DNA from: Billgrantia pellis
GTDB lineage: Bacteria > Pseudomonadota > Gammaproteobacteria > Pseudomonadales > Halomonadaceae
Direction of reading: 5' to 3'
Assembly: GCF_008297955.1 (NCBI RefSeq)
Contig: NZ_VTPY01000003.1
Location: forward strand, 62,001-126,000
Length of the DNA stretch: 64,000 nucleotides
The position numbers and the translations under genes are program-made. The number at the start of each line of letters is the position of its first letter. The stretch's first letter is position 1. The notes below the pieces were generated by a model, which did not search any database, was not told the DNA's origin, and worked only from the letters and a program-made list of their open reading frames with translations. Positions 16,615-28,425 of this stretch are shown here, piece by piece.

Positions 16615-18117
16615 ATGTGCCCCTTGCGTATCGTTGTCGACCGACAGGAAGACTGGCGGCCCTACTACCCTTCGGAGGATCTGGTCGGCGCCGACGACTT
16701 CCTCGCCCTGGATCGGCGTCACCGCGCCGCCGCCGATCAGGACCGCAGCACGCACGTGATCAATCTCTGCGGTGAGCTCGACTATCTTGGCACCGGCTAT
16801 TACGTCTCGCTGCTCGCGCAGGCACGCGGCCAGCGTGTGCTGCCCTCGGTGGAAACGCTCAACGAGCTGTCGCGCAAGGCCCTGGTCGACCTGCAGCTCG
16901 ATTCGCTGGCGTCACTGCTAGGCGACCTGGCGCGCCAGGGCAGGCTCGTCGGCGACAGCGTGACCCTGCGTGTGCTGTTCGGCGAATGTCGCGAGCCCGA
17001 ACTGGCACGGCTCGCGCGCAAGCTTTTCGAGCGCTTGCCCTGCCCCCTGCTCGAGGCACGCCTGGTACGTCGCCATGACCTGTGGCGACTGGGCCGGGTC
17101 AAACCGCTTACGCTGCGCGACCTGAGCGCAGACGAACAGGACCTCTTCGCCGCGGCACTCAACCGCCACTCGCGCAAGGTATGGCGTACGCCCAAGGCGC
17201 GGCGCCGCTATCGCTTCGATCTGGCCATCCTGGTCGACCCCAAGGAGGCCATGCCGCCCAGCAACCGCAGCGCCCTGAAAGCCTTCATTCGCGCCGGCCG
17301 TAAGCTGGGCATCGATGTTTCCTTGATCACCCGCCGCGACGCGGGCCGGCTTGCCGAGTTCGACGGCCTGTTCATTCGCGAGACCACCGCGCTGGATCAT
17401 CATACCTACCGCATGGCGCGGCTCGCCGAGCACGAAGGGTTGGTGGTGATCGATGCTCCCCGCGACATCCTTCGCTGTACCAACAAGGTGTACCTGCACG
17501 CACTCCTGCGCGCCCGCGGTGTACCGGCGCCCGACGGCGTGCTTCTCAAGCGGCGTGACCGCCGACCGCTGGCTGAACGAGTCGCCGGCCTGAGCTTTCC
17601 TATGGTGCTCAAGATTCCCGATGGTTCCTTCTCTCGCGGCGTGGTCAAGATCGAGTCGTTCGAACAGCTCGAGCGCGAGGCAAGACGCCTGTTCGAGGAT
17701 TCCGCCCTGCTGCTGCTGCAGGAGTGGCTGCCCACCGAATACGATTGGCGCATCGGAGTGCTCGACGGCCAGGTACTCTTCGCCAGCCGCTACTACATGG
17801 CACGGGGGCACTGGCAGATCTACGATCACTCGGGCGCGCGGGTGAAGAGTGGGGGGTTCACCACGCACGATCCGACCGAGGTTCCTCCCGCCGTGATCAA
17901 GGCCGCCCTCAAGGCCACCCGCCTGATCGGAGACGGTCTCTACGGCGTCGATCTCAAGCAGACCGGCGATCGCGTGGTGGTCATCGAGGTCAACGACAAT
18001 CCCAACGTGGATGCCGGTGTCGAGGATACTGTCCTGGGTCGCGCGCTTTACGAGCGCATCATGCGCGTCTTCCTTGCCCGCATGGAGTTACACGTTCGAG
18101 CTCGGGCAAGCGAGTGA
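16615..18117 (+). CDS. RimK-like ATP-grasp ligase with N-terminal RLAN domain
   Basis: Predicted amino-acid or peptide ligase of 500 residues. The N-terminal 190 residues match the RLAN module found fused to RimK-like enzymes (HVINLCGELDYLGTGYYVSL). The C-terminal half is a full ATP-grasp: LKIPDGSFSRGVVKIESFEQ is the glycine-rich ATP loop, LLLQEWLPTEYDWRIGVL the adenine/hinge region, and VVVIEVNDNPNVDAGVED supplies the metal-binding Glu and Asn. E. coli RimK adds glutamates to ribosomal protein S6, but this subfamily is longer and its product is not established. The divergent GNAT gene is a likely partner. AAAGGA lies 10 bases before the ATG. Confidence 0.9.
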   Translation: MCPLRIVVDRQEDWRPYYPSEDLVGADDFLALDRRHRAAADQDRSTHVINLCGELDYLGTGYYVSLLAQARGQRVLPSVETLNELSRKALVDLQLDSLASLLGDLARQGRLVGDSVTLRVLFGECREPELARLARKLFERLPCPLLEARLVRRHDLWRLGRVKPLTLRDLSADEQDLFAAALNRHSRKVWRTPKARRRYRFDLAILVDPKEAMPPSNRSALKAFIRAGRKLGIDVSLITRRDAGRLAEFDGLFIRETTALDHHTYRMARLAEHEGLVVIDAPRDILRCTNKVYLHALLRARGVPAPDGVLLKRRDRRPLAERVAGLSFPMVLKIPDGSFSRGVVKIESFEQLEREARRLFEDSALLLLQEWLPTEYDWRIGVLDGQVLFASRYYMARGHWQIYDHSGARVKSGGFTTHDPTEVPPAVIKAALKATRLIGDGLYGVDLKQTGDRVVVIEVNDNPNVDAGVEDTVLGRALYERIMRVFLARMELHVRARASE

Positions 18118-18471
18118 CACCGCTTTCTCACCCTGCAAAACAAGGAATATCATAGAGTTACAAAGTAAAATCAAGTAATCGTCGCCAAATGGAGACAGTT
18201 CAACCCATTGATTTAAAAGACGACATGCGCTCAAAGCTCATCATGTCTTCATTTAGCGACACATTTTAGCACACTGTTTCGCCATCCTCTTCCTGATCTC
18301 CTGTAAGCCATTGTTTATATGGCAAACCCCTTAGTTGGCGTGGATGTTGCGTACCTGTAAGCACGTCAATGTCATGTATCTGGCCCTGAGCACCATTCGA
18401 CGCCGGTAACACTCCGGCGCGATGGCGCCGTTTGGATGGATGGGCCCAACCATCAAGGAGCGACGACGATC
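18118..18471 (+). promoter_or_regulatory. AT-rich control region of the exopolysaccharide operon
   Basis: This 354-bp gap is clearly more AT-rich than its surroundings, especially 18140-18330. It holds a sigma-54-like promoter at 18336-18350 and, in the presumed leader, a hairpin CGCCGG/CCGGCG (18401-18419) followed by a GC-rich palindrome around 18417-18430. I see no coding sequence. The size suggests binding sites for several regulators. Confidence 0.55.
18336..18350 (+). promoter_or_regulatory. Candidate sigma-54 promoter of the exopolysaccharide operon
   Basis: TGGCGTGGATGTTGC keeps the essential GG and GC dinucleotides at 10-base spacing and matches TGGC-N7-TTGC. It lies 122 bp before the ugd start. 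A sigma-54 promoter also controls algD in Pseudomonas, so the arrangement is reasonable, but no test beyond the match was possible. Confidence 0.5.
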
Positions 18472-19818
18472 ATGAGGATTACCATCTTCGGTTCTGGCTA
18501 TGTGGGTTTGGTAACCGGTGCCTGTCTGGCCGACGTCGGCCATGAAGTCTTGTGTGTCGATGTAGACGAACGAAAGGTGGCCCGCCTCAACGCCGGCGAG
18601 GTGCCCATCTACGAACCCGGCCTCGAGAATTTGATCAGCAAGAACATGGCCGCGGGACGTATCCGCTTCACCACCGATGCCGCCGAGGCAGTGAAATACG
18701 GCCTGCTCCAGTTCATTGCCGTGGGCACGCCCTCCGACGAGGATGGAAGCGCGGACCTCAAGTACGTACTGAAAGTGGCCGAAACCATCGGCGCACACAT
18801 GAACGATTACAAGATCATCGTCGACAAGTCGACCGTGCCGGTAGGTACCGCCAGCAAGGTCGAACGGACCGTAGCCGCCGAGCTGGAAAAGCGGGGTCTG
18901 GATCTCGAGTTCGACGTCTGCTCCAACCCCGAATTCCTCAAGGAGGGGGCGGCGATCGAAGACTTCTCACGCGGCTCGCGCATCATCGTCGGCACCGATT
19001 CGGAGCGTGTAAAGAAAGCGATGCTGGAGTGCTACGGGCCGTATAACCGCCAGCGCGACAAGATGATGTTCATGGGCGTGCGCAGCGCCGAGCTGACCAA
19101 GTATGCGGCCAATGCCATGCTGGCGACCAAGATCAGCTTCATCAACGAGATCGCCAATCTGGCCGAGCGCCTTGGCGCCGACGTTGAGGAAGTCCGTCAC
19201 GGTATCGGCTCCGACCCGCGTATCGGCTACAGCTTCATCTATCCCGGCTGTGGCTATGGCGGCTCCTGCTTCCCCAAGGACGTCAAGGCACTGGCGCACA
19301 CTGCCGAGGAGATCGGTCATCCCGCCGAGATGATCAAGGCGGTGGAGCGGGTCAACGCACGACAGAAGAACAAACTGTTCGAGAAGCTCTGCCAAGCCTT
19401 CGACGGCCAGCTTGCCGGCAAGACCATCGCCTTGTGGGGCCTGGCTTTCAAACCCAATACCGACGACATGCGCGAAGCGCCCAGCCGTGCCCTGATGGAA
19501 GCCCTGTGGGAGGCAGGCGCCCGGGTCCAGGCGTTCGACCCCGAGGCTACCGAAGAGTGTCGTCGTCTCTATGGCGAGCGTGACGATCTGGTACTGGCCG
19601 ACCGGCGTGACGACGCCCTGGAAGGCGCACATGCGCTGGTCATCTGCACCGAATGGAAGGCCTTCCGCACCATCGACTTTCCGCAGCTCCGCGAGACGCT
19701 TGCGGAACCGGTGGTCGTCGATGGGCGCAATCTCTACTCACCCGATACCGTCAAGGCTGCTGGACTCGCCTACTACGGCATCGGCCGAGGCGACTCCGTG
19801 CGGCCCGTGCTGGCCTGA
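18472..19818 (+). CDS. ugd: UDP-glucose 6-dehydrogenase, first gene of the exopolysaccharide operon
   Basis: Oxidises UDP-glucose to UDP-glucuronate with two NAD+. The 448 residues start [20 protein letters not shown] (Rossmann loop GSGYVG). [25 protein letters not shown] and [15 protein letters not shown] follow, and the catalytic cysteine is C266 in [18 protein letters not shown]. This [11 protein letters not shown] form belongs to UDP-glucose dehydrogenases; AlgD-type GDP-mannose dehydrogenases read differently here, which is why I do not call it algD. The ATG at 18472 has AAGGAG 14 bases upstream; an upstream in-frame ATG (18436) is less likely. Nine bases separate it from the synthase gene, so its product presumably feeds that polymerase. 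Confidence 0.93.
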
Positions 19819-19827
19819 GGTGTCGAC

Positions 19828-21756
19828 ATGACCCCCACTCCCCGAAACCATTCGACTGCCAGTCGGATCACGGAGCTGGTCACGTTCCTGTTCGGCATGG
19901 CGCTGTTGGTGGTGATCCTCAGCGAGTTGCCCGCGGAGGTGTTCTCGCCCGAGTCGGAGAGCTTCATCTTCGTCATCGGCGGGATCGCCATCTGGCGCTA
20001 CTCCTGGTGGGCCATTCAGGCGGTGCGTTCGGTCTGGTACAACCGGGTCGTCTTCCCCAGGCTGCGGGCCGAAGCGGATGCCGTCGGTGAGCTGGAGCGG
20101 CCACCGGAGCTGTTCGTGCTGTGCACGTCATTCCGCATCGAGGCGCAGGTGAATTTCCAGGTCTACGATGCGCTGATTCGCGAAGCCCGCGATTACGGCG
20201 TGCCGACGACGATCTTCGCCTCGGTATCGGACCGCACCGATGTCGACGTCATCACCCACGTGATGGACGACCATGACTGGCCGTCCAACGTGGAGGTGCG
20301 CTACATGTTTCAGAAGGGGGACGGCAAGCGCTCGGCCATGGCCGAAGTGCTGCGGGCGATCTCCCGGCGCCTGCCGGCGCCGGGATCGCTGCTGATCTCG
20401 ATGGACGGCGATATTCGTCTCGAGCCGGGTACGCTCTCGCGCTCGCTCTCCTTCTTCATGTCGCAGGATGACCTGGGCGCACTGACCACCAACAACCAGG
20501 CCGTCGTCACCGGTAACGACGCCACCCGCGAGTGGTACGACCTGCGCTATGCCCAGCGCCACCTGATGATGAGTTCAATGTCGCTGTCCCGGCGACTGCT
20601 GGTACTGACCGGACGCTATAGCGTGTTCCGCGCCGACCTGGCGACCCAGCCGGACTTCATCGAACTGATCGAGAGCGATCACGTGCATCACTGGCGGTTC
20701 GGCAACTTCAAGTTCCTCTCCGGTGATGACAAGTCCTCCTGGTTCTGGCTGCTGAAGAATGGCTGGCGCATGATCTACCTGCCGGATGTCTTCGTGACGG
20801 GCTTCGAAGAGTTGCCCGACCGACGCCGCTTCTTCGCCTCGACCACCGATCTGATGCGGCGCTGGTACGGCAACATGCTGCGTACCAGCAACCGCGCGAT
20901 CGCCTTGGGACCGCGCCCGATGGGCATCTTCACCTGGTGGAGCCTGGTCGACCAGCGTCTCTCCATGTGGACGACCCTCGTGGGCCCAACGGTGGTAACG
21001 CTGGTCACGCTGTTCGTGAGGCCCTCGTTCTTTTTCGCCTATGTGCTGTGGATCCTGTTCACCCGCGGCATTGCCACCTTGATTCTGGCCTGGCAGCGCG
21101 GACGCTACAGCCTGCTGTGGATTCCGCTGATCTATTACAACCAGGTCTGGGGCGCGATTCTCAAGACGTATGTCAGCTTCCGCTTCAATCGGCAGAAGTG
21201 GTCACGCCAGGGCATCTCGGCGGGTGAGCCCGATGATCCGGTGGCGGCACGCCGTCAGCGTCGCATGGGGCACGTGCTGCATGGCTTCGTCTACGGCGTG
21301 ATGCTGTTCGTGCTGCTGCTCGGTACAGGCGTGCTGCAGCCGCCGGACCGCGCCTCGCTGCATATCGCTCTGGATCAAGGCTGGGAGCGCAATCACGAGC
21401 CCGAGCGACTGGACCGGTGGCTCGCGGCCCTGCTCGTCGATAACCACGGCGAGACCGTCCACTTGCCCACGGGATATTTCCAGCTCGATGGCTCGCTTCT
21501 CGACGTCATCGAGCAAGGCTCCCTCTCCGACACCCGGCGTATCCGCGGAACGGCCGAAGCCACCACCCTCGCGGTCTCCCCCGCCGTGGCGGAGAGACTA
21601 CGGGGGCCGGACGGCGCCCCCTTGCGGGGCGACGTCCAGTGCACCGAGCAGGACAATTGCCGAATGACCTTCAACGAACACGACCTGACTCTCGTCAACG
21701 TACGACTCAGGGTCGAACCTGCCGTCACCACAGACGTGGCGACAGCGGGACCCTGA
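19828..21756 (+). CDS. Alg8-like processive GT2 polysaccharide synthase with extra C-terminal domain
   Basis: Inner-membrane family 2 glycosyltransferase of the Alg8 type, 642 residues. Two N-terminal membrane segments (about 12-32 and 45-62) precede the cytosolic GT domain, which has SVSDRTDVDV, the nucleotide-sugar DxD as D193-G194-D195 in LLISMDGDIRLEPGTL, ESDHVHHWRFGN, and an RRW (344-346) at the Q/RxxRW position. Three or four membrane segments follow, the last about 482-507. Pseudomonas Alg8 ends near 494; here about 135 more residues continue after the last helix, with a strand pattern (VHLPTGYFQLDGSLLDVIEQ) like the opening of a beta-helix. Monomer inferred from ugd: glucuronate. Confidence 0.87.
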   Translation: MTPTPRNHSTASRITELVTFLFGMALLVVILSELPAEVFSPESESFIFVIGGIAIWRYSWWAIQAVRSVWYNRVVFPRLRAEADAVGELERPPELFVLCTSFRIEAQVNFQVYDALIREARDYGVPTTIFASVSDRTDVDVITHVMDDHDWPSNVEVRYMFQKGDGKRSAMAEVLRAISRRLPAPGSLLISMDGDIRLEPGTLSRSLSFFMSQDDLGALTTNNQAVVTGNDATREWYDLRYAQRHLMMSSMSLSRRLLVLTGRYSVFRADLATQPDFIELIESDHVHHWRFGNFKFLSGDDKSSWFWLLKNGWRMIYLPDVFVTGFEELPDRRRFFASTTDLMRRWYGNMLRTSNRAIALGPRPMGIFTWWSLVDQRLSMWTTLVGPTVVTLVTLFVRPSFFFAYVLWILFTRGIATLILAWQRGRYSLLWIPLIYYNQVWGAILKTYVSFRFNRQKWSRQGISAGEPDDPVAARRQRRMGHVLHGFVYGVMLFVLLLGTGVLQPPDRASLHIALDQGWERNHEPERLDRWLAALLVDNHGETVHLPTGYFQLDGSLLDVIEQGSLSDTRRIRGTAEATTLAVSPAVAERLRGPDGAPLRGDVQCTEQDNCRMTFNEHDLTLVNVRLRVEPAVTTDVATAGP

Positions 21757-21775
21757 CGCAAGGAGCGACCTACGG

Positions 21776-23338
21776 ATGGCTGATCATTTTTCCAACGATG
21801 ACCCCAAGCGGCACGAGCCAACGCTCGGAGGGAACCGGGCAAGGGGCCCCGAACCAGGGTACGCCGAGTCCGGCAGCCCCAATCACGATGCCACTCGCCT
21901 GAGCAGAGGCGATCGGCTACAGCATGAACGGCGCGACGAGCGGGGCTATATCCGCGTTACGCTGCCGTTTCGTGTCGCACCCGACGATGATGAGACGACA
22001 CTCGCCGGTCACGATGTCTCGCTCGGCGGTTTCTCGGCTCACAGCGAGCGCCGCTACGAACCCGGCGACCGGATCTCAGCCTCCCTGCTGATGATGGCGG
22101 GCGCCACCGAGTTGATCGTGCCGCTGCGCGCCGAGTGCCTGCGTTCGTCCGCTTCAACGGCGGGTCGGGGATACGACATCAGCTTCGAGATCGTGGAGAT
22201 CGAGCCTCAGCACCGCGAACTGCTGCGCCAGATCATACGCAGCGCGCTGAGCGGCCGTTCGCCCAACATTGAAGGTTTGATGGCGGGGGAAGATCCGCAG
22301 ACACCGCGCAAGCGAAAAGCGACCAAGCCGCAGCCACCCACACGGCCGCCGAGGCCGATGGGGCGTTACATCCTGCTCTTCGTCGCCATCGGCGTATTGG
22401 TCCTGGTAGGGGCAGCCACGGCCTACCGCAACTTCATGCTGATCGAACCCAGTTTCGCCGCCGTTACGGCGCCGCGCATCGACATCCGTGCCCCTGGCCC
22501 GGGCTTGCTGGGTGAGCACGAGCTGACCGCCGGCGACCGGGTCGAGCGCGACCAGTTCCTGACCAAGGTCGTCAACAGCGACCTGGAGTCGGACCTCATC
22601 CTGGCCGAGGCGGCACTGGACTACAACGAGCGGTTGATCGATAACCTGCGTGAGAATATCGAGGGCGGCGCGCAGCGGGTCAGTCTGGCCAACTCGGCGC
22701 AACCGGCCAGCGGCGACACCATGACCTTCGAGTCGGTGTCGCCCGAAATCGCCCAGGCCCGAATCGACCAGTTCGAGACGGTGCGGGATTACGAGAGTTC
22801 GCGCATCGCCGCCCTCGAGGCACGCATGGCGAGCAACGATATCTACAGCCCTTGCGATTGTCTGGTGGCCTGGGCCTTGAGCAGCGCCGACGGGGTCTAC
22901 ATCAACGAGAGCGAGCGGATCATGACCCTGATCCGCACCGATGAGGACGACGTGCTGGTCGAGGCGCTGGTACACATGAGCGATATCAGCCGCATCGAGC
23001 CCAATCAGCAGGCCTACGTGACCCTGGCCAACGCCTCCCAGCCGATCCGCGCCCGGGTCCGCAACGTCGCCCTCGACGTCGAACGACAGCCCCGCGCCGG
23101 TTTCCCGAGCTGGGTGCGCCAGCAGCAGAACGTCGCCAGCGTCCTGCTCGTGCCCGAGGAACCGCTGCCTGCCGAGAGCGTCGGTCAGCCCGTGGACGTG
23201 CGCTTCACCGAGGCTCCCCTGCTCGGCGCCGCCTCGGAGCGTATCTGGCAGGGGGTGCGCACCGTGATTCAATTCGGCGACGACATCTATCGCGCCGCGA
23301 TTCAGGAGGATGATGATGAAAATGTCGACGATGGCTAA
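21776..23338 (+). CDS. Alg44-like PilZ / membrane-fusion protein (c-di-GMP-dependent co-polymerase)
   Basis: The 520-residue protein has the Alg44 layout. An N-terminal cytosolic PilZ domain carries an intact c-di-GMP site: RGYIR (R56 and R60 of RxxxR) and DVSLGG (D80, S82, G85 of DxSxxG). One membrane helix (about 197-217) is followed by a periplasmic HlyD-like part with a lipoyl-type half (APGPGLLGEHELTAGDRVER), a coiled-coil stretch around 270-350 and a second barrel half. In Pseudomonas, c-di-GMP binding to Alg44 switches on Alg8. The gene starts 19 bases after the synthase stop. Its stop lies inside the next gene's N-terminal codons, so translation is coupled. Confidence 0.9.
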   Translation: MADHFSNDDPKRHEPTLGGNRARGPEPGYAESGSPNHDATRLSRGDRLQHERRDERGYIRVTLPFRVAPDDDETTLAGHDVSLGGFSAHSERRYEPGDRISASLLMMAGATELIVPLRAECLRSSASTAGRGYDISFEIVEIEPQHRELLRQIIRSALSGRSPNIEGLMAGEDPQTPRKRKATKPQPPTRPPRPMGRYILLFVAIGVLVLVGAATAYRNFMLIEPSFAAVTAPRIDIRAPGPGLLGEHELTAGDRVERDQFLTKVVNSDLESDLILAEAALDYNERLIDNLRENIEGGAQRVSLANSAQPASGDTMTFESVSPEIAQARIDQFETVRDYESSRIAALEARMASNDIYSPCDCLVAWALSSADGVYINESERIMTLIRTDEDDVLVEALVHMSDISRIEPNQQAYVTLANASQPIRARVRNVALDVERQPRAGFPSWVRQQQNVASVLLVPEEPLPAESVGQPVDVRFTEAPLLGAASERIWQGVRTVIQFGDDIYRAAIQEDDDENVDDG

Positions 23339-24191
23339 GGCGATCCATGCAGCGCTGCTGAGCGGGGTCGGACTGGCGGCTCTGTCGATGACGGCGTCGG
23401 CCGACGAGGCCGAGGATGCGATCGTTGCCATTCCCCAGGTGGAGGCCTGCTCGCAGCGCTATACACTGGCCGAATCCCCTCGTCCACAGCACGCCGCGAA
23501 TGGTCATGAAGCGGTCCGCGAGGGGTTCCACACCAAGCGCCACTGGGGCACGAAAGAGAACGTGGATCGCCTGGCTGCCGCGCATACCGGAATCGACGAG
23601 CCCGGGCTACGGGTACACTATCCCGCCGGCACCTCCTCGCCCGGCGAAGAACCTCGCGGCGGAGCAGGCTTCTATAGCGATCCCCCCTCTCTGAGGGGGG
23701 CCGAGCGCGCCTGTCTGAGCTACATGGTGCGCTTCCCGACGAATTTCGACTTCGTCAAGGGTGGCAAACTACCGGGCCTGTATGGCGGCGAAGCCCCCTC
23801 CGGCGGGGAAGACGTCAGCGGCGAGAATGGCTTCTCCATGCGACTGATGTGGCGCGAGGAGGGGGAAGGCGAACTCTACCCCTATGTGGTCGGTTTCGAA
23901 GGAGAGTCGGTGGGCCGCGGCTTCTGGCGCTTCCCCCTCGGTCAGTGGGTGACCGTCGAGCAAGAAATCATACTCAACGACCCCGGCCAGGAGAATGGCA
24001 TCGCCCGGCTATGGATCGACGGGCGACCGGTGCTGGAACAGCAGAACATCGTCTACCGCACCTCGCCCACGGTCACCATCGACGGTCTGATGTTCTCCAC
24101 CTTCTTCGGCGGGACGGGCGAAGGCTGGCGCACGCCGCGAGATCAGTACGTGGATTTCGCCGCCTTCCGCTTCTACGTCCCTAGCATTTGA
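23316..24191 (+). CDS. Secreted polysaccharide lyase, PL14/PL20-like
   Basis: Predicted periplasmic or secreted lyase of 291 residues. The signal peptide ends near TASA/DEAED. The body is a beta-jelly-roll with segments I associate with polysaccharide lyase family 14 and relatives: FDFVKGGKLPGLYGGEAP (about 145-162), GFSMRLMWREEGEGELYPY, GQWVTVEQEIILNDPG, LWIDGRPVL and DGLMFSTFFGGTGEGW followed by TPRDQYVDFAAFRFY. PL14 includes alginate lyases and a chlorovirus enzyme that cuts glucuronate chains; PL20 contains glucuronan lyase. The start ATG 23316 is 6 bases after AGGAGG, one of three adjacent ATGs. Assignment to PL14 as against PL7 or PL20 rests on motifs only. Confidence 0.72.
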   Translation: MKMSTMAKAIHAALLSGVGLAALSMTASADEAEDAIVAIPQVEACSQRYTLAESPRPQHAANGHEAVREGFHTKRHWGTKENVDRLAAAHTGIDEPGLRVHYPAGTSSPGEEPRGGAGFYSDPPSLRGAERACLSYMVRFPTNFDFVKGGKLPGLYGGEAPSGGEDVSGENGFSMRLMWREEGEGELYPYVVGFEGESVGRGFWRFPLGQWVTVEQEIILNDPGQENGIARLWIDGRPVLEQQNIVYRTSPTVTIDGLMFSTFFGGTGEGWRTPRDQYVDFAAFRFYVPSI

Positions 24192-24226
24192 CGATTCTCT
24201 CGAGCGCCGACGGAGTGACGCCGATC

Positions 24227-25474
24227 ATGCCCTTCGCCCTTATCAAAGGACGCTTTACCCATCGCCTGGCAGGCCTCCTGGTGCTGACACTCATCGCGCC
24301 GTGGAGCAGCGCCGACAGCACGGAGCTGCTTACCCGTGACGAGCGGTTGGCGCTGGATCTGTCCGAGTACCGGGTCACCGATCCGGATGCCAGCTATTTC
24401 GATGTCGAGGCGCGCATGGAGCTGCTGCACGAAACCGACAACGCCATACTTCTTCAGGAGATCGACGAGCGCGCGCTGGGTCTGAGCTGTCAGCAATTAC
24501 TCAATCAGGAGCCACTCACCACGCGTGGCGCCATCCCTGGCTACTACCCCAACCCCGAGGAGTGGGAACTCGCCAGCGAACCGCTGTTCGCTTTCGAGGA
24601 CAGCGTCTCGGCGCTTGCTGGCGCCTTCGTTGCCAGCGGCGATTCCTTTTATGGCGAGTGCTTGGTGCGCTACCTGCATCGCTGGGCCGAGGCCAAGGCG
24701 CTGACCACGTTCGTGTTCGACTCGAACGACCCTCAAGCCTGGTTCGCCTCGGAGTCGATGCTGTTTGCCGCAGCCATGGCGTACTCCATCGTGCGTCCCT
24801 ATATCGATGGCATGGAGGAGGAGCGCAAGGCGATCGAGCAGTGGATGCATGGACTCGCCCTACAGCATTCGGCGTTCCCGGGCCAGCCCGAAGAGAGCTG
24901 CTGCAACAACCATTTCTATCGCCGTGCGCTATACGCCAGCATGATCGGCGTGCTCGTCGAGGACGACGAGCTATTTCGCTTCGGGGTCAGCGCGATCTAT
25001 TCCGCCCTGCATGACATGACCGAAGCGGGCGCCCTGCCGCTGGAAGTAGGTCGTGGCCGTCGTGCCACGCATTACCAGAACTATGCGCTCAACTACCTGA
25101 TCACCAACATGCAGATCATCCATCGCCAGGGTTACGACATCTTCGATCTGGCGTACCGGGGCAACACGATCCACGACGGCGTGAATTTTCTCTTCGAGAT
25201 TCTCGACGACCCGGCCGCTCTTGGCGATTACGCCCCGCTCGAACAGTACACGGGCTTTCTCAAGGATCCGCAGTACTTCACCTGGATGGACATCTACCTC
25301 TCACATTTCGATCACCCGCGTGTCAGCGATTTCGTGCGCCGGGTTCGCCCTCTCTACAACCGCAGCGCGGGAGGGTTCATCACGCTGTACTTCATGGATC
25401 CCGAGGCTCAGGAGCACGTCTTCCTGGATGAGGAGCGTCGCCGTAGTGACGCCTTCCGCGGCCTGGGCGAGTGA
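24227..25474 (+). CDS. AlgL-like (polysaccharide lyase family 5) periplasmic protein
   Basis: The 415-residue protein has a signal peptide (about 1-28, ending APWSSAD) and an alpha/alpha-toroid like AlgL. The catalytic NNH is N227-N228-H229 in CCNNHFYRRALY, and the Arg and Tyr fall at R276 and Y283 in RGRRATHYQNYAL. The spacing of 47 and 7 residues equals H202, R249 and Y256 of Pseudomonas AlgL, so the enzyme should be active. A C-terminal tail (YNRSAGGFITLYFMDPEAQ) is not part of the AlgL I know and recurs in the small ORF at 28255. In alginate producers AlgL clears polymer that strays into the periplasm. ATG 24227 is preferred, with GGAGTGAC upstream. Confidence 0.85.
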   Translation: MPFALIKGRFTHRLAGLLVLTLIAPWSSADSTELLTRDERLALDLSEYRVTDPDASYFDVEARMELLHETDNAILLQEIDERALGLSCQQLLNQEPLTTRGAIPGYYPNPEEWELASEPLFAFEDSVSALAGAFVASGDSFYGECLVRYLHRWAEAKALTTFVFDSNDPQAWFASESMLFAAAMAYSIVRPYIDGMEEERKAIEQWMHGLALQHSAFPGQPEESCCNNHFYRRALYASMIGVLVEDDELFRFGVSAIYSALHDMTEAGALPLEVGRGRRATHYQNYALNYLITNMQIIHRQGYDIFDLAYRGNTIHDGVNFLFEILDDPAALGDYAPLEQYTGFLKDPQYFTWMDIYLSHFDHPRVSDFVRRVRPLYNRSAGGFITLYFMDPEAQEHVFLDEERRRSDAFRGLGE

Positions 25475-25524
25475 GGAACGACCCCGTTACGACACGGCTC
25501 GACACTTATGCTAGAGGGGAACAC

Positions 25525-28164
25525 ATGGAACGGACAACGAATTGGACTCGACCCACCCCAACGCTGTGGCCGGCCGCAGCGTTGCTTCTGGCTGCCTGGC
25601 TCACCGGCTGCGCCGCGACCGGTGGGCCCTCCTCTGGCAACCACGCGCCTCCCGTCCCACCGGAATACGAGGCGTGGTTCGGTGGCGTGGTCGAGGCCCG
25701 CATCGACGGGAATGATTGGGACGCCATCAATTACAGCCGTTCGCTGCTCGAGCAAGGCCGCCACGAGGAAGCCATCGAGCGCCTCGAGGCGCTCATGACG
25801 CGCAATATCCCGCCAGCGTTCTACGAGATGGGCAAGCTTTACGAGCGCGGCGAAGTGGTCGAAGAGGATCCCGCCAGGGCCGCGCAGTATTATGGAAAAG
25901 CGCTGGAGCGCCCCTCTTCCGTTCGTGGCAACGTTTCACTGAACCTCGCCCGGCTCTATCAGGAAGGCCGCGGGGTCGAGCGCAACGACGTACTGGCCTA
26001 CCACCTGCTGAGGCAGGCGGTCGACGCCAATCTCAACCGAGATGCCGAAGTCCGCCTTGGCATGCTGCTGGCCGAAGGCGGTGAAGGGGTGAAAGTCGAC
26101 CCCGAATACGCTCAGCGCCTCCTCGAGCACGCCGCGACGCAAGGCAACGCGAAAGCGCTGCAGGCGCTGGCCGAGGCCCATTCCGCCGGCGGCTGGCTGG
26201 AAGAGAAGCCGGCCGAGGCCATGGATTACGCCCAGCGCTACGCCGAGGTACTCACGACACAGGCCAACCAGGGCGATACCGGCGCCATGCTCCAGTTGGC
26301 CTCTCTCTACTCCGAGGACGGTCTGCTCGGCGACCAGCCCGAACAGCGCATCAACTGGCTGCGCAAGGCCGCCGAAGCCGGCGATCTCGATGCCTTGGCC
26401 AGGGCCGGTCGGGACATGTTTGCGACCGGGGAGTCTCGCCAGGGCATGGCGCTTCTGGAAGAGGCTGCCAGCCAAGGCCATGTCGACGCCATGGCCTACT
26501 ACGGCGAAGCGCTGCTCAACCCTCCCGGAGGCCGGCCGGAGCCGGTGCGAGCCGAGCGGTGGTTGCGGGAAGCCATGGACAGGGGCTCGCTCGATGCCCA
26601 GGTCATCCTGGGGCGGGCGCTGGTGGAAGGCCAAGGCGGGCTCAACGACCTCCCTCGTGGCATGAACCTGCTGGAACAGGCCGCCGAACAGGACCATCCG
26701 TTAGCCCTGGCCCAGCTCGGTTCCCTCTATCTCGACGATGAACGCGTCGCCGGTCAGCCCTACATCGCCGTCGACTATCTCGAGCGCGGCCATGAGCTCG
26801 GCCACCCCTGGGCCACTCAACAGCTCGGTGCGGCTTATCTCGAAGGTCGCGGGGTCGCGCCGGAACCCAGCCGCGGCGAGGAACTGCTACGCGAAGCCGC
26901 CGCACGCGGCCAATCGGGCGCCATGCGCCTGCTGGGGGAAGCCTACCTCAAGGGAGAAACCTTGGAATTCCATCCCAGCCGCGGCGAGGAACTCCTGCAT
27001 CAAGCGGCCGAGGCCGGCGATACGACGGCCATGACCCTGCTTGGCAAGGCCTATCTTGAAGGACCGCTCGACGATCCTTCACTGGGCGTCAACCTATTGA
27101 CGCAGGCGGCCCAGCAAGGGGATGCCTATGCCATGGTCGTTCTGGGTCGCGCCTATCGCAACGGGGATGGCGTCGAACGCGACCTGGACGAGGCCACCCG
27201 TTGGTTGACCCGTGCTCAGGAGGCCGGTCACGAGTCGGCCGACGACGCCCTCACCTACGTCCAGCGCGATCTGGGAGCCCAGGGCGACATCGAGGCCCTG
27301 GTAGCCGCCGCCGAAGACGGGCATCCCGGCGCCATGGCCGATCTCGGTCGTGCTATTCTCGAAGGGCAAGGCGTCGAGCGTGATCCGTCCCGAGGTGAAC
27401 GCTGGTTGGAGCGCGCCCATCAGGCAGGCCATGCCGGTGCCGCCGCCAGTCTGGGCAGGATGTACATGGACCGGGGCAGCCACCAACGCGGGATCGAGTA
27501 CCTGGAAGCCGCCGTGGCCAGAGGGCACGCCGGTGCCAGGGCCGACCTGGGCGAGGCCTATCTGACCGGCAATCACGTCGAGCGTGACATGGAACGTGGC
27601 CTGGAGCTGGTCACCGCCGCCGCCGAGGCGGGATCGCCGCATGCCGCCTTTACGCTGGCCGAGCTCTATCAGCAGGGAGATGATGTCGAGCAGGACGCCG
27701 AACAGGCAGAACGCTGGTACCAACAGGCTATCAACGGCGGCGCTCGCTACGCCAAGGCCGGCCTGGGCAGGGCGCTGCTCCGCGGTGCAGGTGCCATTGA
27801 TCAGGACGTCGACCGGGGCCTGGAGTTGTTGCAGGAAGCGGCCAACCAGGGAGATCCCGGCGCCCAGGCGACCCTGGGGCGTGAATACCTGCGTGGCGAG
27901 GTGCTCGAGCGGGATCCGGAAAAGGGAGCCGACTACCTCTACGAGTCCGCCAGCCAGGGGCACGCCAGCGCCCGCCTCGCCCTGGCCGAAGCCTATCTGT
28001 CCGCCCGTGGTCTGGAGCGCGCCAACCAGGAGCAGGCTCTGCTATGGCTGGACGAGGTCTTCGAGAGCGAAGGCCAGCTTGCCATCGAGACCCTGCGCCA
28101 GTTGCTCACCGATGAAGCGGCAGTGGCCGCGGCGGGCGAGGTCGAAGTGGCCGAGGACGAATGA
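25525..28164 (+). CDS. Very long Sel1-repeat lipoprotein, AlgK-like
   Basis: Outer-membrane lipoprotein of 879 residues: signal with lipobox LTGC (Cys29), then roughly twenty Sel1/TPR-like repeats of 34-38 residues from about 60 to the end. Typical repeat pieces are LGRAYRNGDGVERDLDEATR, LAELYQQGDDVEQDAEQAER and LGEAYLTGNHVERDMERGLE. AlgK of Pseudomonas is a similar but shorter (about 475 residues) lipoprotein that organises the alginate export porin AlgE and its partners. The same scaffold role is likely here, though no porin gene is present in the window. ATG 25525 is preceded by GAGGGGA. A strong terminator follows the stop. Confidence 0.85.
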   Translation: MERTTNWTRPTPTLWPAAALLLAAWLTGCAATGGPSSGNHAPPVPPEYEAWFGGVVEARIDGNDWDAINYSRSLLEQGRHEEAIERLEALMTRNIPPAFYEMGKLYERGEVVEEDPARAAQYYGKALERPSSVRGNVSLNLARLYQEGRGVERNDVLAYHLLRQAVDANLNRDAEVRLGMLLAEGGEGVKVDPEYAQRLLEHAATQGNAKALQALAEAHSAGGWLEEKPAEAMDYAQRYAEVLTTQANQGDTGAMLQLASLYSEDGLLGDQPEQRINWLRKAAEAGDLDALARAGRDMFATGESRQGMALLEEAASQGHVDAMAYYGEALLNPPGGRPEPVRAERWLREAMDRGSLDAQVILGRALVEGQGGLNDLPRGMNLLEQAAEQDHPLALAQLGSLYLDDERVAGQPYIAVDYLERGHELGHPWATQQLGAAYLEGRGVAPEPSRGEELLREAAARGQSGAMRLLGEAYLKGETLEFHPSRGEELLHQAAEAGDTTAMTLLGKAYLEGPLDDPSLGVNLLTQAAQQGDAYAMVVLGRAYRNGDGVERDLDEATRWLTRAQEAGHESADDALTYVQRDLGAQGDIEALVAAAEDGHPGAMADLGRAILEGQGVERDPSRGERWLERAHQAGHAGAAASLGRMYMDRGSHQRGIEYLEAAVARGHAGARADLGEAYLTGNHVERDMERGLELVTAAAEAGSPHAAFTLAELYQQGDDVEQDAEQAERWYQQAINGGARYAKAGLGRALLRGAGAIDQDVDRGLELLQEAANQGDPGAQATLGREYLRGEVLERDPEKGADYLYESASQGHASARLALAEAYLSARGLERANQEQALLWLDEVFESEGQLAIETLRQLLTDEAAVAAAGEVEVAEDE

Positions 28165-28169
28165 GGCAC

Positions 28170-28203
28170 CGATCGGGTCCGCCCTTGCGGGCCCGATCGT
28201 TTC
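28170..28203 (+). terminator. Rho-independent terminator of the exopolysaccharide operon
   Basis: A 13-bp stem with one G-U pair (28170-28182 with 28187-28199), a CCTT loop and TTTTC after it lies 6 bases beyond the stop of the AlgK-like gene. Confidence 0.88.
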
Positions 28204-28254
28204 TCACGCAAGCGGCAGGAAGCGAAGATGATATGAGTTTCGCACGCACGGTTG

Positions 28255-28425
28255 ATGCTCGCCGTTGGCGTGGCGCTGACATGCCTGATCGGCATGTCCA
28301 TTTACAACCGCGATACCGGTGGCTACGCCACGCTCTATTTCATGGATCCCGAGGCACAGACGCCTATCAGGCTGGATGAAGAGGAGCGCAAGACGCGTGC
28401 CTTCGAAGGGCTTTCCGCCAACTGA
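28255..28425 (+). CDS. 56-residue membrane-anchored ORF repeating the AlgL-like C-terminal tail
   Basis: The frame encodes a short hydrophobic N-terminus (MLAVGVALTCLIGMSIY) and then YNRDTGGYATLYFMDPEAQ, LDEEERKTRAFEGL and a stop. This aligns with the last 40 residues of the AlgL-like protein (YNRSAGGFITLYFMDPEAQ ... LDEERRRSDAFRGL). The ATG 28255 has no clear ribosome-binding site. An upstream ATG at 28234 (MSFART) in the neighbouring frame follows AGGAAGCG; removing one G near 28251 would fuse it to this ORF and give a normal signal or anchor sequence. It may therefore be a real small protein with a sequencing or natural frameshift, or the remnant of a duplicated gene. It lies beyond the operon terminator. 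Confidence 0.6.
   Translation: MLAVGVALTCLIGMSIYNRDTGGYATLYFMDPEAQTPIRLDEEERKTRAFEGLSAN

Follow-up and report, generated by a model that had tools for sequence, protein, structure and literature searches.

A conserved Halomonadaceae operon of alginate-type architecture predicted to use UDP-glucuronate, probably for glucuronan synthesis

What does an alginate-type machine polymerise when the dehydrogenase at the head of its operon is of the UDP-glucose type? The question is raised by a 64,000-nucleotide stretch of Billgrantia pellis DNA (contig NZ_VTPY01000003.1, positions 62,001 to 126,000; 'the window' hereafter), which belongs to a genome of 4.35 Mb that is 99.99% complete (G000, contig C3). 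On the plus strand, at 18472–28164, six genes form a tight operon: ugd, encoding a UDP-glucose 6-dehydrogenase (UGD); an alg8-like gene for a glycosyltransferase of family GT2; an alg44-like gene; genes for two polysaccharide lyases, of families PL14 and PL5; and a gene for a Sel1-repeat lipoprotein. Gaps of 9 nt (ugd/alg8-like) and 19 nt (alg8-like/alg44-like) part the first three genes, and the remaining genes overlap. With a probability of roughly 60%, the operon is predicted to encode a synthase-dependent system of alginate architecture that works on UDP-glucuronate (UDP-GlcA), its most likely product being a linear (1-4) glucuronan; the same confidence applies to the prediction of a glucuronate homopolymer as such.

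The initial annotation of this DNA took the precursor enzyme to be a UGD, and this reading has held. The protein carries PF03721, PF00984 and PF03720 in a Pfam scan, its signature is [11 protein letters not shown], and its motif [13 protein letters not shown] is of the UDP-glucose dehydrogenase type, enzymes of the GDP-mannose dehydrogenase (GMD, AlgD) type reading PG(F/Y)A(F/Y)GGSCLPK. Among its solved relatives the UDP-glucose dehydrogenase 2y0e comes first with 563 bits, against 215 bits for the GMD 1mfz. A tree of 28 dehydrogenases places 11 GMDs apart from 16 UGDs (99/99 and 97/91), the tool warning that some long branches meet. In the genome itself PF03721 picks out three proteins above its cut-off, two encoded by ugd genes and one of WecC/WbpA type, and no GMD is among them. 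The second ugd, on contig C1, is 66% identical to that of the operon and apparently sits in a surface-glycan cluster, its neighbours resembling, by eye, epimerase and pseudaminic-acid-type genes. The possibility, raised at the outset, that ugd serves only lipopolysaccharide loses ground here: a second ugd is present and could serve surface glycans.

Alg8-family proteins were matched (E<=1e-40) in 24 of 398 genomes of the phylum and 52 of 151 genomes of the family, the window's own genome counting in both. The best 80 of 377 relatives gave a locus set of 72 Halomonadaceae (assigned by title), among which at least three genomes are represented twice, plus eight alphaproteobacterial members. By tblastn the order ugd-alg8-alg44-PL14-PL5-algK is complete in 68 of the 72 Halomonadaceae loci, and since it recurs in this way the operon is not a chance arrangement. 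Contig ends truncate three of the four loci short of the full order (L116, L140 and L169) but not L166. A ugd occurs at 69 of the 72 loci and a GMD at none, and at all 69 the UGD match beats that of AlgD (lowest UGD 523 bits, highest AlgD 235). This ugd, carried by the operon over and above the second genomic copy, links UDP-GlcA supply to the synthase, which it probably feeds. Two of the three loci without ugd are cut by a contig end, while L166 (H. saccharevitans) shows 9.9 kb of upstream DNA without one. A second set of 27 loci, partly overlapping with the 72, has the full order in 26; L077 lacks a nearby ugd, but its genome carries one at another place, and none of the three PF03721 proteins in that genome is a GMD. 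Whether ugd always replaces algD in such operons had been posed as a question: GMD is indeed absent throughout the 72 loci, but L166 and L077 depart from the rule. Both dehydrogenase types together were found in none of the examined loci.

The position of ugd varies beyond the family. It is the first gene in Halomonadaceae; in Caenispirillum (L101), Thalassobaculum (L174) and an alphaproteobacterial metagenome-assembled genome (L173) it stands behind alg44 and belongs to a different clade. Only the synthase of L101, not its ugd, nests inside Halomonadaceae (95/96), a pattern suggesting that the operon was transferred and its dehydrogenase swapped for one of the same type; judged from these sequences, horizontal transfer is the likely origin of the Caenispirillum operon. 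In L061 (G313) a galU gene lies upstream of alg8 (TIGR01099, 338 bits, cut-off 327; 275 bits against 548 for a second GalU model, under its cut-off), and the sole PF03721 protein found in that genome is of the ugd type, about 20 kb away. Three gene arrangements—ugd first, a ugd of another clade behind alg44, and galU—all point to UDP-glucuronate supply, and UDP-glucuronate is very probably the donor.

The synthase carries PF13641 in a Pfam scan, and its nearest named homologues are Billgrantia and Halomonas proteins 80–83% identical to it. Residues considered catalytic in Alg8 and in related GT2 synthases (D138, D193/D195, D300/D301/K302 and R345/W346) are conserved in 97–98 of 98 family rows; some genomes enter the conservation rows twice. 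In a tree of 37 synthases a single branch (94/92; 95% of bootstrap trees) has on one side 11 GMD-linked synthases and on the other 18 that are ugd-linked and eight without a dehydrogenase nearby. The window synthase is 35–41% identical to the 11 GMD-linked members (tblastn). Six alignment columns, chosen for differing between the GMD-side and ugd-linked groups, hold in 15 of 15 GMD-side rows (14 at column 325) and in 71–73 of 73 ugd-linked rows; the GMD-side and ugd-side residues are R/F at 161, E/N at 223, F/Y at 241, V/L at 257, T/V at 259 and T/G at 325. All three alphaproteobacterial ugd-linked members conform at columns 161, 257 and 259. At loci without a nearby dehydrogenase, the ugd-side residue stands at all six columns in L159, L172 and L166, at five in L061 and L177, at two in L178 and at one in L063. 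A further contrast, GTGKRD against GDGKRS, was rejected as a clean marker of donor type, the ugd-linked L173 and L174 reading GTGKRD and GTGKRP.

No solved structure was matched by the synthase sequence at E<=0.001. For an AlphaFold2 model of it (predicted local distance difference test score, pLDDT, 84) the top 13 Foldseek hits are hyaluronan synthases, the best solved-structure match. This closeness was not used as evidence for a UDP-sugar; no Alg8 structure is among the 50 listed hits.

At 642 aa the window synthase is longer than the 493-aa Pseudomonas-type Alg8 of L071, and a C-terminal extension spans approximately residues 510–642. By hhalign, a 55-column stretch of it shows kinship with the beginning of a 370-aa domain that is fused to the synthase in L173 (958–3705) and in seven database proteins of 825–890 aa (P0122–P0128), with a probability of 79.8, an E-value of 1.4e-5 and a score of 42.6, compared with 18.0 for a reversed control and at most 15.6 for 30 shuffled ones. 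The model of the fused domain (pLDDT 88.9) is a right-handed beta-helix similar to phage tailspikes and to polysaccharide lyases and epimerases, among them K1 capsule lyase, chondroitinase B and AlgE4, with low TM-scores (at most 0.54 of the query among the 50 matches listed). The domain contains invariant NKGxxGxGYxR, RHxxxQWxS and NFHGG stretches and, going by its model, is a candidate built-in chain-modifying enzyme. Some Halomonadaceae synthases (P0061 of 522 aa, for example) are without the extension, which is thus dispensable. The chances are about even that a second Alg8-family branch, in Halomonadaceae and several Alphaproteobacteria, polymerises UDP-glucuronate, in some members with a fused beta-helix modifier, and exports the chain without an AlgE-type porin; jointly with this, the balance is equally poised on whether the window synthase keeps a stump of the fused domain.

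The partner proteins complete the core of the machine. The alg44-like product combines a PilZ domain (PF07238) with HlyD_3 (PF13437) in a Pfam scan. Its RxxxR motif is kept (R52 in 96 and R56 in 104 of 105 rows), as is DxSxxG (D80 in 100, S82 and G85 in 102), and these motifs point to control of the synthase system by cyclic di-GMP (c-di-GMP). The lipoprotein has Sel1 repeats (PF08238) and a lipobox read from the sequence. It is about twice as long as the AlgK of L071 (897 vs 458 aa), and since it reaches 101 bits on the AlgK model, below the cut-off of 700, 'AlgK-like' is valid for its architecture and position only. The alginate-type core described in the initial annotation is therefore confirmed for the Alg8-like, Alg44-like and PL5 components, and in that restricted sense for the AlgK-like one.

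Both lyases have signal-like N-termini and are the sole PL5 and PL14 matches in their genome. The one nearer the alg44-like gene, first assigned to PL14 or PL20, is a PL14 enzyme (PF21294, 211 bits); the Pfam scan gave PL14 only and no support for PL20, the presence of a PL20 model in Pfam being unchecked. Its cleft residues K153, S176, R178, Y190 and Y192, whose catalytic roles we assume, are kept in 96–101 of 102 rows. The other carries PF05426 (PL5, 125 bits), with the catalytic N-H-R-Y set kept (N241 and H242 in 103, R289 and Y296 in 102 of 104 rows). That its family would mark either enzyme as a lyase of glucuronate chains found no support. The five solved relatives of the PL14 enzyme are by name alginate lyases or vAL-1, the nearest being the Aplysia alginate lyase 5gmt; nearest to the PL5 enzyme is the alginate lyase A1-III (138 bits), followed by Smlt1473 (95 bits). 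PL14 crystals containing glucuronate were considered as proof of glucuronan specificity and rejected: according to the available text of PMC9614988, the glucuronate in vAL-1 crystals is a stand-in for mannuronate or guluronate. Smlt1473, a PL5 enzyme of Stenotrophomonas maltophilia, shares with the window PL5 the N-H-R-Y site and an RGxRA stretch and, depending on pH, cuts polyglucuronate, hyaluronan and alginate or polymannuronate (PMC8511899, in the part available); unlike the window enzyme it is a secreted broad enzyme. The cellouronate-degrading Brevundimonas SH203 encodes one PF05426 protein, which its authors consider possibly involved (PMC5477187). Across loci the lyase tracks the synthase type: PL14 occurs at none of the 11 GMD loci, and against the window PL5 the PL5s of six ugd-side relatives outside Halomonadaceae score 260–471 bits, compared with at most 73 for those of GMD loci (5 of 11 match). 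The roles of both enzymes in the operon are probable ones, and their specificity is beyond the reach of sequence.

The absence from the window of GMD, AlgG, acetylation genes and AlgE, remarked on in the initial annotation, extends to the genome wherever it was searched, and no algD, algG or algE of a pathway split between loci came to light. The genome gave no match to the AlgE porin model PF13372 (Alginate_exp), which finds the AlgE of L071 with 319 bits; none to ALGX (PF16822), which finds the AlgX of L071; none to MBOAT, matched in 3 of 14 control genomes; and none to AlgG, matched in all three Pseudomonas-type genomes in the same search. Queries for AlgE, AlgG, AlgX, AlgI, AlgJ and AlgF likewise found nothing at the 72 Halomonadaceae loci (AlgJ and AlgF being sought at loci only); at the 11 GMD loci the same queries found AlgE at 5, AlgG at 6, AlgX at 8, AlgI at 7, AlgJ at 8 and AlgF at 4. 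As these genes were not found, AlgG epimerisation and AlgI-type acetylation are not expected. Among the loci, only L061 has a small barrel-like protein, with a weak Autotransporter match under the cut-off. It stands in a row of galU, alg8, alg44, PL5, an RTX/beta-helix protein and the small barrel-like protein (L061:7869–17000), possibly a version of the system equipped with its own exit and with a modifying enzyme outside the cell.

The system as predicted would run as follows. Ugd would make UDP-GlcA in the cytoplasm, and c-di-GMP, on binding to the PilZ domain of the Alg44-like protein, would set the Alg8-like synthase to polymerise it and to thread the growing chain across the inner membrane. 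The Sel1/AlgK-like lipoprotein would guide the chain in the periplasm. The PL5 enzyme (as AlgL does) and the PL14 enzyme may remove or shorten chains that are mislocalised or finished. The product would most likely be a linear (1-4) polyglucuronate without AlgI-type acetylation.

Several observations weigh against this proposal. The six synthase columns may reflect ancestry alone; they are leads and not proof, because shared ancestry could account for all of them. Three ugd-side synthases without a nearby dehydrogenase (L063, L064 and L178) read GTGKRD like most GMD-side members, and the synthase loci L166 and L077 show that the link to ugd is not absolute even within Halomonadaceae. For either lyase, the nearest relative of solved structure is an alginate lyase. 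Missing AlgE, AlgX and AlgG are not specific to ugd loci, because GMD loci are often without them too, and no outer-membrane porin was found, no dedicated exporter search having gone beyond PF13372. Finally, UDP-GlcA as donor is by itself also compatible with a heteropolymer, hyaluronan being an example. In the original proposal of a c-di-GMP-controlled uronate polymer, an alginate-type machine fed by a UGD has support: its synthase lies apart from the GMD branch, its PilZ motif is intact, and no alginate-modifying or AlgE gene was found in the genome. A homopolymer does not follow from ugd, which hyaluronan systems pair with their synthase likewise.

UDP-GlcA could be one of two donors, for a heteropolymer of glucuronate with glucose or N-acetylglucosamine that resembles hyaluronan or the pneumococcal type 3 capsule. 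Such a product seems unlikely here. The nearest sequence relatives of the synthase are Alg8 homologues, the characterised Alg8 member makes a homopolymer, both lyases belong to polyuronate families, and the conserved operon has no gene for a second sugar. Hyaluronan operons (hasA, hasB, hasC) do share with the window a membrane synthase fed by ugd (with galU in L061) and the closest solved fold, as the Foldseek hits show, but unlike them the window has a PilZ partner, a Sel1 lipoprotein and two lyases with signal-like N-termini. Hyaluronan systems typically show this gene pattern, in which ugd and galU accompany a membrane synthase (PMC4443731, in the text available), and the activity of Smlt1473 on hyaluronan would suit such a product as well. 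That UDP-GlcA is epimerised first, giving a galacturonan or a galacturonate-containing polymer with an epimerase from another cluster, would find a candidate enzyme in a sugar-epimerase-like open reading frame (ORF) two genes upstream of the second ugd (L181, 6383–7390; by eye, first residues); it is improbable given a conserved six-gene order without an epimerase and lyases of PL5 and PL14, not of pectate-lyase families.

An ordinary alginate (mannuronan) system that has lost algD and the modification genes, drawing GDP-mannuronate from another enzyme with ugd as a bystander, would agree with the closest solved PL5 being an alginate lyase and with the database labels of some synthases, Alg8 or mannuronan synthase. 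It would also agree with the survey by Bundalovic-Torma et al. 2020 (PMC7112194), which covered 1733 genomes and, in its available text, classes as 'atypical alginate operons' alg8-type loci that have likewise lost transport and modification genes; its main text, as available, is without Halomonas, glucuron, UDP-glucose or algD. Yet no GMD was found in the window's own genome, G313 or G407, ugd recurs in nearly all Halomonadaceae loci, and the Alphaproteobacteria carry a different ugd, so this explanation is very improbable. Hardly credible is a system that mainly degrades or recycles external uronans, the synthase being incidental: two polysaccharide lyases do share the operon, but they are the genome's only PL5 and PL14 matches, and L173 has synthase, PilZ partner and ugd without a recognisable PL5 or PL14.

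Compared with the alginate system of Pseudomonas and Azotobacter, the predicted glucuronan system shares the GT2 catalytic residues, the PilZ/HlyD partner, the Sel1 lipoprotein and the PL5 lyase; it differs in having ugd for GMD, an added PL14 and a synthase in a separate branch, and the epimerase, acetylation genes, AlgX and AlgE of alginate producers were not found for it. It works like the alginate machine and stands outside the alginate system by its precursor and by its porin, epimerase and acetylation genes. The same product is proposed as that of the glucuronan producers Sinorhizobium meliloti M5N1CS and Peteryoungia rosettiformans (PMC10180729); the available text of that paper describes P. 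rosettiformans as a wild glucuronan producer and names no synthase gene, operon, alg8 or alg44. The contig of H. smyrnensis AAD6 (L179) holds the full six-gene operon, of which the genome paper, in the part available, names only 'Alg8' and 'alginate lyase' (PMC4523562). In the open-licence literature, a scope that leaves most subscription journals and bioRxiv outside, no glucuronan synthesis was found assigned to an Alg8-type operon.

Table 1. Features of the operon and its 3' border in the window
Feature	Position	Strand	Basis
ugd, UDP-glucose 6-dehydrogenase (precursor UDP-GlcA)	18472..19818	+	Pfam, PDB match, motif, tree; ORF possibly from 18436
alg8-like processive GT2 synthase, 642 aa	19828..21756	+	PF13641, homologues, catalytic residues, AlphaFold2 model, hhalign
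alg44-like PilZ (c-di-GMP type) + HlyD periplasmic protein	21776..23338	+	PF07238, PF13437, RxxxR/DxSxxG
PL14 lyase, N-terminal signal-like segment	23310..24191	+	PF21294; overlaps alg44, start possibly 23331
PL5 (AlgL-family) lyase, signal-like segment	24188..25474	+	PF05426, PDB match, catalytic residues
AlgK-like Sel1-repeat lipoprotein, 897 aa, lipobox LTGC	25471..28164	+	PF08238; sub-cut-off AlgK model score
13-bp hairpin then TTTCTC, terminator-like operon end	28170..28199	+	sequence; fold -26.6 kcal/mol
Remnant of second PL14-PL5 pair (PL14 start, PL5 end)	28228..28425	+	tblastn

The borders of the operon are given in Table 1. Its start had been placed at 18336; the start codon of ugd comes 100–136 nt downstream of this, at 18436 or, with greater likelihood, at 18472. 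At the other end, the stability of the hairpin corresponds to a z of -4.38, with none of 200 shuffles equally stable; a consensus terminator scan, which demands more T, misses it, and that scan gave close to the shuffled expectation (7 terminators against a mean of 5.1, 1 promoter against a mean of 1.7). In the remnant beyond, the PL5 end is 69% identical over 39 aa and the PL14 start 65% over 23 aa, and second PL14-PL5 pairs stand 3' of algK in L135, L136, L143 and L155. Upstream of ugd, at 16615–18117, lies a gene for a RimK-like ATP-grasp protein with an RLAN domain, which has no evident link to the polymer and adjoins the operon in some relatives, such as L125 and L135. Separately, L070 belongs to a Pseudomonas-type genome of the same taxonomic order (G190) in which alg8 loci number two; a GMD of its own accompanies the second, as does a gene resembling, by eye, a mannose-1-phosphate guanylyltransferase.

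Glucuronan has known producers and lyases, and no synthase gene for it is named in the open-licence literature searched. If the proposal is true, the second Alg8-family branch would add one more to the five synthase-dependent exopolysaccharide systems now recognised and would provide the first genetic candidates for a glucuronan synthase. One synthase architecture would have been adapted to GDP-mannuronate in one case and to UDP-glucuronate in the other, a small set of residues offering itself for study, and automatic annotations that read 'alginate biosynthesis protein Alg8' or 'mannuronan synthase' would be corrected. In Halomonas relatives, this compact and conserved operon may be a genetic source of a useful polyuronate.

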